In this document: positions 42,828-48,720 of the stretch, one piece after another
Position numbering within the stretch: the first letter of the stretch is position 1
Layout of the letters: each line of letters starts with the position of its first letter
Assembly (NCBI RefSeq): GCF_003731635.1
Contig: NZ_RCUA01000037.1
Location: 1-64,000, forward strand
Source of the DNA: Marisediminitalea oceani
Lineage (GTDB): Bacteria; Pseudomonadota; Gammaproteobacteria; Enterobacterales; Alteromonadaceae
DNA length: 64,000 nucleotides
Direction of reading: 5' to 3'
Translations under genes and position numbers: made by a program
The notes under the pieces: generated by a model
Databases searched by the model: none
Told to the model about the DNA's origin: nothing
Seen by the model: only the letters and a program-made list of their open reading frames with translations

Positions 42828-43769
42828 TCAGCTATCCACTCTAACCGCATGACCAAGGGTGTCAGACAGGATACGCCGGATCTCATTGCCAAGTTCACGG
42901 AAAAATACCCGCCCCGGCGCGGTATTCCGCCACACCAGATTATGCTGACGCTCAATTGGCGTATCTTTTAATTCACACACGTGCAGTTCGTCCGGTTGAT
43001 GCAGTTCGGAGTGAACATAAAGGCCGGGCAGAAATGCCACGCCCATCCCCATAACCACCATTTGCCGAAGTGTATCTAAACTCGTGCCCTCATAATCCCG
43101 GGTCACCTGGGCGCCGATTTTCATACAGATCTCATGAACCTGATGGTGGAAATGGTGGGCTTCTTCCAGCGTTAACACCGTTTCGCCATGAATTTGCTCC
43201 GGCTCTATATAACGAAGGCCGGACAAAGCGTGGTCACTGGGGACAACAAACTTAAGTGGCTCAATAAACAGTTTACTCGCTACCAGTTGCGAGGATTCCT
43301 GGGAGCCCGGCGAGATAATGATATCAAAATGTCCATCGAACAGACCCTGCACCAATTGCGTGGGCGCAGCTTCCCGCACATAGAACTTTAGCTTGGCGTA
43401 CCTTTTGTGTAACTGCGGCAAAATAAATGGCAGCAAATACGGCCCTAATGTTGGTGGCACCCCAAGCCGGTAGGTAGTTTGGTTACCACCGGCAATGTCA
43501 CGGGCTTTTTCCTCAAAACGGATAGACGATTGCAGTACATCCTCTGCCAGCGGTAACAAGGCGCGGCCCTCCGGCGACAGCAACGTGCCACTGCGGGAAC
43601 GTTCAAACAGGGATATGCCGAGGCTTTTCTCCAGCACGTTAATCTGTGAGGTCAGGGTTGGCTGACTTATGCCTAATACCTGCGCCGCGCGGCGGTAACT
43701 TAGCTCCCTCGCCAGTGCCACAAAGTAGCGAAACTGCGTGTAGGTAACTGACTTGGTTGAGGTGACCAT
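42828..43769 (-). CDS. LysR regulator, OxyR-like without the sensing cysteine
   Basis: A 313-residue LysR protein. The winged helix-turn-helix covers about 8-67 and the effector domain about 98-300. It aligns with OxyR over its length (PTLGPYLLPFILPQLHKRY, GTSLDTLRQMVVMGMGVAFLPGL regions). OxyR senses peroxide with Cys199 and Cys208; here the first position is His206 (LEEAHH) and only the second, Cys215 (HEIC), is kept. Disulfide switching is therefore not possible in the usual way, and another signal is likely. It is divergent, 137 bases away, from the first of two carbonic anhydrase/SulP pairs, and an ATAG-N7-CTAT element is in that gap and again before the second pair. It is the likely regulator of both. 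Confidence 0.85.
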   Translation of the reverse strand: MVTSTKSVTYTQFRYFVALARELSYRRAAQVLGISQPTLTSQINVLEKSLGISLFERSRSGTLLSPEGRALLPLAEDVLQSSIRFEEKARDIAGGNQTTYRLGVPPTLGPYLLPFILPQLHKRYAKLKFYVREAAPTQLVQGLFDGHFDIIISPGSQESSQLVASKLFIEPLKFVVPSDHALSGLRYIEPEQIHGETVLTLEEAHHFHHQVHEICMKIGAQVTRDYEGTSLDTLRQMVVMGMGVAFLPGLYVHSELHQPDELHVCELKDTPIERQHNLVWRNTAPGRVFFRELGNEIRRILSDTLGHAVRVDS

Positions 43770-43800
43770 AAACTTAAGTCCAAATAAATAATGCCAACAT

Positions 43801-43838
43801 ATAGCCTTAGGCTATCACGAAGTAAACTATTTTTCTAT
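43801..43838 (+). promoter_or_regulatory. shared LysR-type operator, copy 1
   Basis: ATAGCCTTAGGCTAT is a perfect palindrome of the form ATAG-N7-CTAT, the half of an OxyR site, followed by CACGAAGTAAAC and TATTTTTCTAT. The 38-base element is identical at 32 positions to 46245-46282. It lies between the LysR start and the first carbonic anhydrase gene. Confidence 0.7.
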
Positions 43839-43906
43839 TAACCTATCAGGTAACAATGATTTGGTATTTTATATAATTTTCTATTTTCATATTTAGGAGC
43901 GACTAA

Positions 43907-44566
43907 ATGGACCACGTTATCTCTGGTGTTGCAAAATTCCAACAAGAAGTTTTTCCAGAAAAGAAGGCAGCGTTTAAAAAGCTCGCCACTGGTCAAAATC
44001 CTGAAGTGCTTTTCATTACCTGTTCTGATTCACGTATCGACCCTAACCTGGTCACACAAACAGAACCAGGCGACCTGTTTATCTGCCGTAATGCCGGTAA
44101 CATAGTGCCGCCACACAGCAACCAGACTGGTGGTATGACGGCCTCTATCGAATTTGCTGTTGCAGCGCTTGGTGTTACCCACATCGTTGTGTGTGGCCAC
44201 TCTGACTGTGGCGCGATGAAAGGTGCCATTGCCCCGGAAGCGCTTACCTCGCTACCTCATGTAAAAGAATGGCTGGGCCACTGCCGCGTTGCTACCGACG
44301 TAGTTAAAGAGCGTTGTGGCTGTGACTCACTGAATAAAGATGACCACTTACAGCTGGTGACCGAAGAAAACGTAGTACAGCAACTTCAACATCTGCGCAC
44401 TCACCCTGCGGTAGCGGCTAAAATCGCCACTGGTCAGGTACAACTGCACGGCTGGTTCTACAACATCGAGACTGCTGAAGTACTTAACTACGATGAGAAA
44501 GCCGGTAAATTCGTGCCAATGGAATCTGCTTTTGCCGCCGAGGAGCAATTGGTAGCAAATAAATAA
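43907..44566 (+). CDS. beta-carbonic anhydrase, first copy
   Basis: A 219-residue enzyme interconverting CO2 and bicarbonate. Zinc ligands Cys39 (TCSDSR), His98 and Cys101 (GHSDCG), with the Asp41-Arg43 dyad, are all present. ATG 43907 follows GGAG. No signal peptide, so it is cytoplasmic. It lies 14 bases before a SulP gene, and the product should trap or release bicarbonate moved by that transporter. It is closely similar to the second copy at 46347, with an almost identical first 60 residues. Confidence 0.96.
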   Translation: MDHVISGVAKFQQEVFPEKKAAFKKLATGQNPEVLFITCSDSRIDPNLVTQTEPGDLFICRNAGNIVPPHSNQTGGMTASIEFAVAALGVTHIVVCGHSDCGAMKGAIAPEALTSLPHVKEWLGHCRVATDVVKERCGCDSLNKDDHLQLVTEENVVQQLQHLRTHPAVAAKIATGQVQLHGWFYNIETAEVLNYDEKAGKFVPMESAFAAEEQLVANK

Positions 44567-44580
44567 CAGGGATCTTGTAA

Positions 44581-46113
44581 ATGAAATTGGACCTATCTTT
44601 CAGTGAAATAAAAAACGATTTACCCGCGAGTATCGTGGTGTTTTTCGTTGCCCTGCCTTTATGTCTGGGTATTGCGCTCGCCTCTGGTGCGCCGCTGTTC
44701 TCCGGTATTATTGCAGGCATCGTCGGCGGTATCGTCGTCGGTTTATTTAGTGGTTCACGGCTGGGCGTTAGTGGCCCGGCTGCGGGCCTGGCAGTAATTG
44801 TATTTGACGCTATTGCCACACTGGGCAGCTGGGAGTTGTTCCTGGTTGCTGTGGTGTTATCCGGTGTTATTCAGCTTATTATGGGCTTTGCCCGGGCTGG
44901 TTTTATTGCGTATTTTATTCCCACTTCAGTGATCACCGGTATGCTTGCCGGTATTGGATTACTGATCATCCTTAAACAAATTCCTTACCTGTTTGGCTGG
45001 CATGCCGACTTCCTCGGTGAAGAAGCGTTTATGCATGCTAATGGCGAGAATACCTTCTCTGCTATCGAACATGCGCTTAGTCTGATGTCGCCTGCCGCGA
45101 TACTGATTTCCGGCGTATCACTGGTTCTGCTGGTAATTTGGGATAAGTTTCTGGTGCCGCGTCACAAAATTTTCCAGCTTATTCAGGGCCCGATTGTGGT
45201 AGTACTGTTAGGTATTCTGGCTTCAGTAATGATGCGCCAGGCCGGTACTCCGCTGGATCCGAGCATGCTGGTTTCACTACCGGTAATTAACAGCTTCAGT
45301 GACTTCACCCAGGAACTGGCGTTTCCGGATTTCTCGCAAATCTTCAATATGGACGTACTCACCATTGCTATCGTGATGGCGGCCGTTGCCAGTATTGAGA
45401 CGTTATTATGCGTGGAAGCCACCGATAAGCTTGATCCGCAGAAAAATGTTACGCCAACTAACCGCGAGCTCAAAGCTCAGGGGATGGGTAATATTATCTC
45501 TGGTCTGGTAGGCGGCCTGCCAATTACTCAGGTAATAGTAAGAAGCTCGGCCAACATCGCGTTTGGTGGTAAAACCAAGCTGTCAGCCATTATGCACGGT
45601 GTATTCCTGCTGGTAGCAGTACTGGCGATTTCCTCCATGCTCAACCTGATCCCGCTGGCGTCACTGGCTGCAATCCTGATTGTGGTAGGCTATAAGCTGA
45701 CCAAGCCGGTCATGTTTAAAGTGATGTATCAGAATGGCTGGGAACAATTCCTGCCGTTTGTAACCACTATTGTGGTGATGATTTTTACCGACCTGTTAAC
45801 GGGTGTATTTGCCGGATTGGGCGTGAGCATCTTCTTTACCCTGAAAAGCAGCTTCCTTAATGCTTATCAGTTTAAAGAAACCATCAATGAAGACCATGGT
45901 GAAAAGACTCATCATATTGTTCTGGCCGAGGACGTTTCTTTCTTTAACAAGCCAAGCATTCTGAAAAAGCTCAATTCGATCCCGGGTAACTCAAAAGTTG
46001 TGCTGGATTTCTCTAACACCAAGTCCATTGCATTTGATGTGAAGGAAATGATTAAAGATTATATCGACCAGGCACAAACCAAAAACATTCGGGTCGAGAC
46101 CATTAAGTTTTAA
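44581..46113 (+). CDS. SulP family anion transporter, probably bicarbonate, first copy
   Basis: A 510-residue inner-membrane protein with ten or more helices followed by a short STAS domain (about 430-510). The N-terminal FFVALPLCLGIALASGAPLF region and the GVSGPAAGLAVIV motif (about 61-73) are typical of SulP. SulP members carry sulfate, dicarboxylates or, as in BicA, bicarbonate with sodium. Pairing with carbonic anhydrase and absence of sulfur genes favour bicarbonate. It is cotranscribed with the enzyme gene. A terminator follows at 46175. Confidence 0.88.
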   Translation: MKLDLSFSEIKNDLPASIVVFFVALPLCLGIALASGAPLFSGIIAGIVGGIVVGLFSGSRLGVSGPAAGLAVIVFDAIATLGSWELFLVAVVLSGVIQLIMGFARAGFIAYFIPTSVITGMLAGIGLLIILKQIPYLFGWHADFLGEEAFMHANGENTFSAIEHALSLMSPAAILISGVSLVLLVIWDKFLVPRHKIFQLIQGPIVVVLLGILASVMMRQAGTPLDPSMLVSLPVINSFSDFTQELAFPDFSQIFNMDVLTIAIVMAAVASIETLLCVEATDKLDPQKNVTPTNRELKAQGMGNIISGLVGGLPITQVIVRSSANIAFGGKTKLSAIMHGVFLLVAVLAISSMLNLIPLASLAAILIVVGYKLTKPVMFKVMYQNGWEQFLPFVTTIVVMIFTDLLTGVFAGLGVSIFFTLKSSFLNAYQFKETINEDHGEKTHHIVLAEDVSFFNKPSILKKLNSIPGNSKVVLDFSNTKSIAFDVKEMIKDYIDQAQTKNIRVETIKF

Positions 46114-46174
46114 CCTTCGTCATGCGCCAGCCTCCCCCCCAACCGGGTTGGCCATTACAGCAGAACGTTAACGT

Positions 46175-46201
46175 AAAAGGCAGCCATTTGGCTGCCTTTT
46201 T
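46175..46201 (+). terminator. terminator after the first SulP gene
   Basis: AAAAGGCAGC and GCTGCCTTTT pair around CATTTG, followed by a T. It ends the first anhydrase/SulP unit, so the second has its own promoter. Confidence 0.9.
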
Positions 46202-46244
46202 GTTATATCTATCCCACCTTAGTTGAATAAAACTCCCTGGACTT

Positions 46245-46282
46245 ATAGCCTATAACTATCACGAGGTAAGCTATTTTTCTAT
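46245..46282 (+). promoter_or_regulatory. shared LysR-type operator, copy 2
   Basis: ATAG-CCTATAA-CTAT followed by CACGAGGTAAGC and TATTTTTCTAT. It matches copy 1 at 32 of 38 positions and keeps the ATAG-N7-CTAT spacing although the inner palindrome is not conserved. It lies about 65 bases before the second anhydrase gene. Confidence 0.7.
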
Positions 46283-46346
46283 GAGACTATAATATAACAA
46301 TATTTTAACAATCATAAATCTTACAAACGACGAGGAGTAAGTTGGT

Positions 46347-47003
46347 ATGGATCATGTCATTTCTGGCGTAGCAAAGTTTCAAAATGAAGTGTTCCCGGAA
46401 AAAAAAGCCGCGTTTAAGAAACTCGCTAACGGCCAAAATCCGGAAGTATTGTTTATTACCTGTTCTGATTCACGTATCGACCCTAACCTGGTAACTCAAA
46501 CTGAACCGGGTGATTTATTTATCTGCCGTAATGCCGGCAATGTTATCCCCCCGCACAGCAACGAAACCGGCGGTATGACTGCATCGGTTGAGTTTGCCGT
46601 AGCCGCCCTTGGTACTACGCATATCGTAATCTGCGGTCACTCTGACTGTGGCGCGATGAAAGGAGCAATTAACCCGGAGGCGTTATCCGCTCTGCCCCAT
46701 GTGAAAGAATGGCTGGGTCACTGCCGGGTAGCGACTGAAGTAGTAAAAGAGAAATGCGGTTGTGATGAACTGAACGCAGAAGATCATTTACAGTTAGTTA
46801 CCGAAGAAAATGTGGTACAACAGTTACAACACATCAAAACCCATCCGGCGGTCGCTGCGAAGCTTGCCACCGGACAGGTAAAACTGCATGGCTGGTTTTA
46901 CAACATTGAAACTGCAGAAGTCACCTGTTATCAGGAAGAAACCGGTAAGTTTGGCCCCATGGACGAAAAATACGCCACCGAGCTGGTTTCTAAACACAAG
47001 TAA
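46347..47003 (+). CDS. beta-carbonic anhydrase, second copy
   Basis: A 218-residue cytoplasmic paralogue of the enzyme at 43907. The zinc ligands Cys39, His98 and Cys101 and the Asp41-Arg43 dyad are kept, so it should be active. The proteins differ mostly in the last 30 residues. ATG 46347 follows GAGGAG. It starts 25 bases before its own SulP gene. DNA identity between the copies is clearly lower than protein identity, which argues for an old duplication. Confidence 0.96.
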   Translation: MDHVISGVAKFQNEVFPEKKAAFKKLANGQNPEVLFITCSDSRIDPNLVTQTEPGDLFICRNAGNVIPPHSNETGGMTASVEFAVAALGTTHIVICGHSDCGAMKGAINPEALSALPHVKEWLGHCRVATEVVKEKCGCDELNAEDHLQLVTEENVVQQLQHIKTHPAVAAKLATGQVKLHGWFYNIETAEVTCYQEETGKFGPMDEKYATELVSKHK

Positions 47004-47028
47004 ACCTAACAACTGTTAAGGAAAAGTC

Positions 47029-48675
47029 ATGAAGAACTTATTTGCTAATGTTCGTGGCGATATTACCGGCGGTATTACCGCCGGCGTAGTTGCACTGCCG
47101 CTGGCACTGGCTCTGGGCGTTGCGTCTGGTGTTGGTCCGATGGCAGGTATGTATGGCGCCATTGCGGTGGGCTTTTTTGCGGCACTGTTCGGTGGTACGC
47201 CATCGCAAATCTCCGGCCCGACCGGACCTATGGTGGTGGTGCTGGCCGGTTTATTTGCCAGTTTATCGGGCAACGTAGAGCTCATTTTTACTGCCGTGTT
47301 ACTGGCTGGTTTATTCCAGATTTTATTTGGTTTTCTGGGCATAGGTAACTATATCCGCCTGGTGCCCTACCCGGTTATTTCTGGCTTTATGTCGGGGATC
47401 GGGGCCATTATTATTATTCTGCAGATTGGCCGGTTACTGGGTCATGAGCCGCCAGGGGGAACTCTGGGCGCACTGGGTTATATCCCTACCGCGCTGGCCG
47501 ACATAAACTTTGCCACGCTGGCACTGGGTATTGGTACACTGGTAATTGCCTATAAATGGCCAGCCAGCCTCGGTAAGTATGTACCGGGCGCCCTGGCTGC
47601 GTTAATTATCGGTACCAATGTCAGCCTGTTCATTACCAATGTACCCATTTTAGGCGACATTCCAACCGGTCTGCCAAGCCTGCATCTGCCTACTTTTGAA
47701 AGCTCTACGCTGTTATTAGTACTTGAGGCGGCGTTTATTCTGGCCATTCTGGGCGCTATCGACAGTCTGTTAACGTCACTGGTTGCCGACAACATGACCC
47801 GTACCCGTCACGACAGCTCCAAGGAACTGATTGGTCAGGGTATTGGTAACACAGTAGCCGGTCTGATTGGTGGTATTGCCGGTGCCGGCGCCACCATGCG
47901 TACTGTGGTTAACATTCGCAGCGGCGGTAAAGAACGCTTATCAGGTATGGTTCATGCGCTGGTATTACTGGCTGTTGTGCTTGGCCTGAGCCCGCTGGCC
48001 AGTGCTATTCCGCATGCCGTACTTGCCGGTATTCTGGTAAAAGTGGGCCTGGATATTGTGGACTGGAGCTACCTGAAACGTGCTCACAGCGGTCCGCGCT
48101 GGGACTTTGCGCTGATGCTGCTGGTACTGGGTCTGACCGTATTTGTTGACCTGATCACAGCCGTAGGCGTTGGTGTGGTATTGGCTGCATTGGCTTACGT
48201 TCGTCAGATTGCCCAGCTGCAAATCGAAGAACTGAAGAAAATTCCGGATACGCTCAACGATCCTAAAGAAAACGCCCTGCTTGAAAAAGCCCAGGGCAAG
48301 GTCAGTATCTTTAGTTTTGGCGGCCCGTTAAGCTTTGGTGCGGCGGCTGATTTAGGTCACCATGTGCGCGAGTGGGTCAAGCCTGGCTCCCGGGTACTCA
48401 TTCTGGACTTCTCCAGGGTGCCCACCATGGACGTATCCGCTTCCATGGCCGTAGAGACCGTAACATCGGATGCCAAGAGTTCCGGCCGACAACTGATGGT
48501 ATGTGGCGCTTCCGATAAAATTAAAGAAGTGCTGGGTAATGTGAATGCTTCCTCTGCGGAAATTCTCACCTACCCTACCTTACTTGAAGCTCTGGAGTCG
48601 GCAGTGTCGATTATCGAGGATAGTGGAAAAAAGTCGCCGAAGCATGATGACAGCTCCACACTGTCTCATGCTTAA
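47029..48675 (+). CDS. SulP family anion transporter, probably bicarbonate, second copy
   Basis: A 548-residue inner-membrane transporter with ten or more helices and a full STAS domain at about 425-530 (VSIFSFGGPLSFGAAADLG start, ILDFSRVPTMDVSA core). It contains GVVALPLALALGVASGVGPMAGMYG (as a region, about 16-40) and ISGPTGPMVVV. It is more distant from the first SulP protein than the two anhydrases are from each other, so the two transporters may differ in affinity or ion coupling, or the pairs may have exchanged partners. A strong terminator follows. Confidence 0.88.
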   Translation: MKNLFANVRGDITGGITAGVVALPLALALGVASGVGPMAGMYGAIAVGFFAALFGGTPSQISGPTGPMVVVLAGLFASLSGNVELIFTAVLLAGLFQILFGFLGIGNYIRLVPYPVISGFMSGIGAIIIILQIGRLLGHEPPGGTLGALGYIPTALADINFATLALGIGTLVIAYKWPASLGKYVPGALAALIIGTNVSLFITNVPILGDIPTGLPSLHLPTFESSTLLLVLEAAFILAILGAIDSLLTSLVADNMTRTRHDSSKELIGQGIGNTVAGLIGGIAGAGATMRTVVNIRSGGKERLSGMVHALVLLAVVLGLSPLASAIPHAVLAGILVKVGLDIVDWSYLKRAHSGPRWDFALMLLVLGLTVFVDLITAVGVGVVLAALAYVRQIAQLQIEELKKIPDTLNDPKENALLEKAQGKVSIFSFGGPLSFGAAADLGHHVREWVKPGSRVLILDFSRVPTMDVSASMAVETVTSDAKSSGRQLMVCGASDKIKEVLGNVNASSAEILTYPTLLEALESAVSIIEDSGKKSPKHDDSSTLSHA

Positions 48676-48693
48676 CAACTAACCGATAATATA

Positions 48694-48720
48694 AAGAGCG
48701 CCAACTGGCGCTCTTTTTTT
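48694..48720 (+). terminator. terminator after the second SulP gene
   Basis: AAAGAGCGCC and GGCGCTCTTT pair around AACT and run into seven Ts. Confidence 0.95.

Follow-up and report, generated by a model that had tools for sequence, protein, structure and literature searches.

In a 64,000-nucleotide stretch of Marisediminitalea oceani DNA (contig NZ_RCUA01000037.1 of assembly GCF_003731635.1; "the window" below means this whole stretch), a minus-strand gene for a LysR-type protein related to OxyR is divergent from the first of two plus-strand units, each of which pairs a gene for a beta-class carbonic anhydrase (CA) with one for a SulP-family transporter. We consider it probable, at about 0.7, that the LysR protein is a dedicated, non-peroxide regulator which acts locally, most likely as an activator, and controls the supply of inorganic carbon in a heterotroph; the comparison of sequences argues strongly for its regulatory link to the CA/SulP units. 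A preliminary description of this DNA had proposed an OxyR relative turned into a CO2/bicarbonate (or pH) regulator of inorganic-carbon uptake in a heterotroph. The tie to the CA/SulP units stands, through synteny, a shared upstream element and joint absence, as does the heterotroph, in whose genome (G000; 4,987,953 bases, 90 contigs) no RuBisCO large subunit was detected. The signal is worded more widely here: it may be CO2/bicarbonate, pH or Na+, and pH/Na+ may count in place of inorganic carbon itself.

Results

The regulator gene (42828..43769, minus strand) encodes 313 amino acids. Aligned with E. coli OxyR (NC_000913), the protein has His206 at the position of the peroxidatic Cys199 and Cys215 at that of Cys208, exactly as the preliminary description had it. 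Among the profiles compared, OxyR scores highest (193.6 bits), followed by GltC (126.7 bits) and CynR (118.4 bits); its own sequence profile matches OxyR structures best (213.1 bits), with 122.8 bits for CcmR and 34.9 for CmpR. The predicted fold (predicted local distance difference test, pLDDT, 85.5; predicted template modelling score, pTM, 0.72) has its best PDB matches in OxyR and then in CcmR (5y2v). The recognition helix reads SQPTLTSQI in the regulator, SQPTLSGQI in E. coli OxyR and SQSTLSTAI in a two-cysteine OxyR-type protein encoded elsewhere in the same genome (G000:C80:66431, EHCMTGHAVSAC). The regulator remains below the cut-off of the curated OxyR model NF008361 (193.6 versus 329 bits), which is a weak test, because the two-cysteine OxyR-type protein fails it as well (182.9 bits).

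We scanned named genomes and obtained at least 562 relatives, of which the best 80, mainly from marine Gammaproteobacteria, were analyzed. They include Alteromonas, Aestuariibacter, Aliiglaciecola, Paraglaciecola, Microbulbifer, Zhongshania, Spongiibacter, Parahaliea, Luminiphilus, SAR86, Pseudohongiella, Oleispira and others, along with a few metagenome-assembled genomes (MAGs) labelled as other phyla. None of the 80 carries cysteine at the Cys199 position, where His (47), Leu (25), Ser (3), Ala (3), Thr (1) and Pro (1) are found, while all 80 carry it at the Cys208 position. A tree of 45 rows sets 32 clade rows apart on one side (97/99), with 12 OxyR rows opposite them (89/82, not starred). 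Left out of this tree were E. coli NhaR and IlvY, an S. meliloti LysR protein that is possibly CbbR (its record is without annotation), and the regulators of loci L081 and L087, whose N-termini are uncertain. The phylogeny that had been suggested as a check thus places the regulator outside the Cys-bearing OxyR proteins. On this comparison it would be a LysR subfamily next to OxyR and not an OxyR by membership, and a peroxide role is unlikely: a peroxide regulator was rejected as a candidate on the absence of Cys199 from all 80 relatives and the presence of the separate two-cysteine protein in the genome.

The equivalents of His205 and His208 are present in 77 and 70 of the 80 relatives, respectively. 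A conserved metal-binding histidine cluster (HHFHH) was considered as a universal sensor and dropped: the His206 position is Leu in 25 relatives, and three regulators linked to Mrp antiporter operons (see Discussion) have Tyr for His208. In the fold model the HHFHH stretch has low confidence (pLDDT 62-71). Separately, the regulator span of L192 (7001-7933) contains an in-frame stop codon, which could reflect a broken copy, a frame slip in the match or an assembly error.

The two CA/SulP units share an upstream element. Its 38-base form, starting at 43801 and 46245, is identical at 32 of 38 positions in the two copies; the best of 60 dinucleotide-shuffle pairs reached 25/38, and the likeness reported earlier is therefore upheld. 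The conserved element is longer than was described, being part of a 52-base motif, TGATAG-N7-YTATCACGA-N7-TAT-N2-TTCTAT-N4-CTATCAGG, with a third CTATCA box that is degenerate in the second copy of the window. The profile has three parts (TGATAG-N7-YTATCACGA; TAT-N2-TTCTAT; CTATCAGG) and comes from 30 non-redundant copies, 28 of which were aligned; ATAG (3-6), TAT (15-17), CTAT (37-40), TAT (46-48) and A50 are invariant in these 28. The first copy (43799..43850, plus strand) and the second (46243..46294, plus strand) score E 2.1e-12 and 8.2e-10 in their own genome, both being also among the copies on which the profile was trained.

In unit 1, the 52-base motif ends where the -35-like box of a putative promoter, GTAACA-16-TATAAT (43850..43877, plus strand), begins. 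This promoter is a consensus match only; because the motif abuts it, in a position usual for activators, an activator role is suggested. It is the one sigma-70-like match at 10/12 for this unit, and the region holds 4 such matches in total, where shuffles give 9.2. No such match at the 10/12 threshold was found for unit 2, so that the earlier claim of a promoter for each unit survives for the first unit and not for the second. We found no column consensus for a -10 box common to the elements. The claim of a terminator for each unit is borne out by terminator-like (intrinsic) stem matches on the plus strand at 46175-46200 and 48693-48716, the two longest of 13 in the region (7.6 in shuffles).

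Across the loci inspected, almost all CA-led units have the element, which starts 79 to 145 bases ahead of their first gene; the weakest case is L021 (19/38). The second genes of CA/SulP units have no comparable match in front of them. Where no CA gene was found, the element precedes SulP (L078 and L087 of genome G105; L081 of G060). Strong matches (E < 2e-7) occur in 34 of 36 genomes of the genus, the same 34 that have the regulator; in other families, 7 of the 24 genomes reach E ≤0.05, and the best match is at 0.0046. In G035, a second strong site (C1:348487) lies on another contig, before a CA/SulP1 unit whose genes are 84% and 87% identical to those of the window. The element therefore marks CA/SulP units, and not merely the neighbourhood of the regulator.

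The core of the element is intact in 52 of the 80 intergenic regions, for which mononucleotide shuffles predict 0.46 in total, and has one mismatch in 11. A sequence within one mismatch of TGATAG-N7-CTATCA is also found immediately upstream of the Cys-bearing OxyR genes in L108 and L109, and one with two mismatches in L112; no such site within two mismatches was found at the two-cysteine OxyR-type gene of the own genome (L080). The occurrences in L108 and L109 suggest that OxyR-type DNA recognition was retained while sensing changed. Seven sites in the own genome have the core with one mismatch; the four inspected (contigs C59, C85, C7 and C17, leaving out C38, C49 and C68) all lie inside open reading frames and were dropped.

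Three places in the own genome pass E 0.001: the two elements of the locus and G000:C41:11600. The last (L116:4601-5053) is a copy without the third box, before a gene for a small secreted-looking protein of 113-121 amino acids, which contains two GKPPFKR-like and DVAQFE repeats and reaches the cut-off of no Pfam family; the gene is divergent from a retropepsin-like protease gene, and orthologous places exist in L207, L209, L210, L211 and L212. This gene is a possible further member of the regulon. Another observation comes from L081 (9315-9791) and L087 (9359-9835), where an open reading frame of 159 amino acids directly follows the regulator gene, with a degenerate element (2 mismatches) readable on both strands; the L087 copy, which was tested, matches no Pfam family.

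The gene neighbourhood leads to the same units. The regulator orthologue is present in 34 of the 36 genus genomes (the own genome and 35 others), in one piece in 33 and split over two contigs in G005. In all 30 genus loci among the matches listed, a CA gene is its divergent neighbour. The two remaining genomes, G012 and G015, have no regulator, no strong element and no BicA-like SulP (best match 33-34%, versus 81-83% in G001 and G010), and carry another CA instead. As far as these two genomes can tell, the regulator, the element, the CA and the BicA-like SulP are present or absent as a set. Within the family, 35 of 295 sampled genomes, from 12 of 52 genera, match the regulator at E ≤1e-48; one of them, G243 (34%), is a two-cysteine OxyR. 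Among the best 80 relatives, the gene facing the regulator belongs to a CA plus SulP pair in 56 cases, to SulP alone in 17 and to CA alone in 3 (two on short contigs), that is, CA and/or SulP in 76 of 80. Conservation of element and pairing in related genomes, which had been named as a check, is thus widespread. As far as the comparison reaches, neither outcome that had been named as refuting was seen. By contrast, CA, SulP and Mrp genes are all absent within 1.5 kb of the 19 OxyR-type loci compared, 12 of which score over the OxyR cut-off. Two regulators accompanied by a SulP1-like gene (L162, L183) are on contigs of MAGs labelled Planctomycetota and Vicinamibacterales, through either lateral transfer or misbinning.

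Both tandem units are present as first described. CA1 (43907..44566, plus strand) and CA2 (46347..47003, plus strand) score 172.8 and 168.5 bits against the PF00484 cut-off of 25.7, and both have the Pro_CA domain with the C-x-D-x-R and H-x-x-C motifs of beta-class enzymes, as CSDSR and HSDC. The best solved structure for CA1 is 5swc (E 1.7e-56), which we take to be the Synechocystis CcaA enzyme. The two CAs are 85% identical and the two transporters 35% over the aligned stretch, the latter belonging to different subfamilies; one CA was therefore duplicated or homogenised beside unrelated transporters. SulP1 (44581..46113, plus strand; PF00916, 213.3 bits) is not close to BicA, with 123.8 bits for the BicA model NF050096 and E 8e-22 against the BicA structure 6ki1, and falls in a separate SulP subfamily. 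SulP2 (47029..48675, plus strand), which has a STAS domain, reaches 546.9 bits, below the 880-bit cut-off of that model; of the two transporters, SulP2 alone resembles BicA. Aligned with 6ki1 (E 2e-109), it is identical at T69, D258, T262, G300, A301 and T302, presumably residues of the bicarbonate/sodium site of BicA.

The own genome has two PF00484 genes, both at the locus, and no alpha-class CA (PF00194) was found in it; the gamma class was not searched for. A scan of 22 genus genomes for beta-class CAs shows, by coordinates, that 18 have CA genes only at the regulator locus. A distant type is found besides these in G002 and G003 and alone in G012 and G015; the four distant CAs are 27-31% identical to those of the window (27-29% for G012 and G015) and are presumably of the Can type. 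As far as predicted genes of the classes searched can tell, the CA/SulP locus is the carbonic anhydrase supply of these cells. A carbon-fixation locus was rejected on the lack of a detected RuBisCO large subunit in the genome. The locus adjoins genes for a DUF3080 protein, an Rce1-like protease and an RpiR-type regulator, and its five genes are 99-100% identical in Alteromonas alba (L123), the nearest named record with the whole locus.

Discussion

These results can be accommodated by a simple model of local control. A clade separate from OxyR has lost the peroxidatic cysteine and appears to have kept the recognition of ATAG-N7-CTAT. Ahead of each CA/SulP unit the regulator would bind as a LysR tetramer that spans the boxes of the 52-base element and, when bicarbonate supply falls short (presumably at low CO2 or high seawater pH), activate the adjacent promoter. 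CA would then be induced together with a BicA-like, presumably Na+-driven, bicarbonate importer, and the bicarbonate would feed carboxylases, e.g. phosphoenolpyruvate carboxylase and acetyl-CoA carboxylase. The comparison itself shows the clade, the missing Cys199, one operator type, the gene pairing, the joint presence and absence and a small regulon of CA/SulP units, whereas binding, the direction of control, the SulP substrates and the signal are inferred.

Several observations weigh against this model. SulP1 is far from BicA, and the third site in the own genome precedes an unrelated gene, that of the small secreted protein. The core is at chance level (two or more mismatches) in 17 of the 80 loci (6 Microbulbifer, 2 Zhongshania, 9 others), in 16 of which synteny is kept; of the 63 loci searched with the full profile, 34 have a match at E ≤0.1 and 18 at E ≤0.001, and the element therefore diverges outside the Alteromonas group. 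Three of the 80 loci face an Mrp antiporter operon and one (L193) neither CA/SulP nor Mrp genes, and many of the 80 are close relatives and not independent. Finally, in an earlier tree with long outgroup rows (NhaR, IlvY and the S. meliloti LysR protein), neither the clade nor OxyR occupied one side of a branch; NhaR joined L081 and L087 there, a long-branch disturbance.

The Mrp-facing loci bear directly on the signal. In Pseudomaricurvus (L182), an Oleispira MAG (L180), Thalassotalea eurytherma (L199) and G144 (L084), an Mrp-type operon lies opposite the regulator, and an element match in between; as far as matched, a universal stress protein gene comes first in all but L180, and the L084 genes were typed by Pfam as MnhE, MnhG, MnhB/MbhD, MnhC-like and MnhD-like. 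The Mrp-linked regulators group together in a supported sub-branch (99/99; 97/97 when L193 is included). pH/Na+ is therefore a serious competitor as the signal: the protein would be a regulator of pH/Na+ homeostasis responding to high external pH or Na+, with CA, Na+/HCO3- symport and Mrp antiport as pH tools and carbon supply secondary. We regard this as rather unlikely on balance, since Mrp operons face just 3 of the 80 regulators and the genomes without the cassette carry another CA, which points to CO2 hydration as the need that is met. Moreover, in these three regulators Ser occupies the Cys199 position and Tyr that of His208, and two of them have lost His205, so their signal may differ. 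In Pseudohaliea rubra (L178:209-6782), the SulP gene opposite the regulator is followed ~4 kb further on by MnhB-like genes; SulP and Mrp genes can thus be near neighbours.

Redox or peroxide control through the remaining Cys215, in the manner of a one-cysteine OxyR, would suit the invariance of that residue in the 80 relatives and the rank of OxyR as closest solved structure. It is nevertheless very improbable: the peroxidatic cysteine is missing from all 80, no peroxide gene was found at the element sites inspected, and the genome has its two-cysteine OxyR-type protein. E. coli CynR also has a cysteine at the Cys208 position, a feature thus not diagnostic of OxyR, and Cys215 is therefore no argument for redox control. 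SulP proteins carry many anions, and CynR, the cyanate regulator of E. coli, is a LysR protein divergent from the beta-class CA gene cynT. The window's protein might likewise be CynR-like and serve a different anion such as cyanate or sulfate, CA recycling the bicarbonate that the pathway consumes. This would fit SulP1, which is not BicA-like, and is a shade less probable still, given the BicA-like SulP2, the higher score of the OxyR model (193.6 versus 118.4 bits for CynR) and the lack of a cyanase among the genes adjoining the locus.

Regulation of inorganic-carbon supply thus remains our preferred reading. A bolder version, which we advance tentatively and at somewhat less than even odds, is that an OxyR-fold protein gave up peroxide as its signal and came to sense inorganic carbon or pH directly, and that the residue in place of the peroxidatic cysteine (His, Leu, Ser or Ala) was retuned with the target (CA/BicA or Mrp antiporter); marine heterotrophs would then have an inorganic-carbon regulon analogous to the control exerted by cyanobacterial CcmR/CmpR. 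A similarity search would label this protein an OxyR or peroxide regulator in marine bacteria, e.g. Alteromonas, Halieaceae, SAR86 and Microbulbifer, and our comparison says otherwise. If the preferred reading is true, heterotrophs own a conserved bicarbonate-supply regulon, testable with a defined operator, defined targets and natural cassette-free members of the genus. It would also be a case of the OxyR fold changing its signal while the DNA site stays, and it bears on the effects of ocean CO2 and pH change on heterotrophs, e.g. Alteromonas helper strains.

Among the titles and abstracts of the open-access literature, we found no description of this regulator. Term searches found no mention of carbonic, SulP, LysR or OxyR in the main text, as available, of two papers on Alteromonas and CO2 (PMC9723591, PMC11748131), and the passages seen of PMC10880623 and PMC8567241 name no such regulator.

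The known systems nearest to this locus resemble it in parts. OxyR (E. coli oxyR; PDB 1i69, 4x6g) is the nearest family by profile and structure and shares the SQPTL recognition helix, the ATAG-N7-CTAT core and the Cys208 equivalent; unlike it, the regulator has no peroxidatic cysteine, falls below the OxyR model cut-off, forms a separate clade and adjoins CA/SulP or Mrp genes. CynR/cynT of E. coli has the same divergent arrangement of a LysR gene and a beta-class CA gene, but is a cyanate system, has no SulP and gives the weaker regulator match. CcmR/NdhR and CmpR are LysR regulators of inorganic-carbon uptake in cyanobacteria, photoautotrophs with RuBisCO; CcmR is the next fold match after OxyR, whereas the sequence matches of CcmR and CmpR to the regulator are weaker (122.8 and 34.9 versus 213.1 bits). 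BicA, a SulP-type Na+/HCO3- symporter, is approached by SulP2, which keeps what we take to be its substrate-site residues but lies below the equivalog cut-off and is known here from sequence, and it is distant from SulP1. Pairing of CA with SulP is known, and was reportedly described by Felce and Saier in 2004. In one study (PMC12628692), an E. coli strain without yadF and cynT was rescued at low CO2 by SulP-CS from Thiomicrospira pelophila; a term search of the same text gave no hit for LysR, CbbR or "regulator". The locus described here differs from such autotroph CA/SulP pairs in that no RuBisCO was detected and in having its own OxyR-like regulator and element. We see in the regulator a member of a LysR subfamily beside OxyR with a conserved, presumably inorganic-carbon, regulon.

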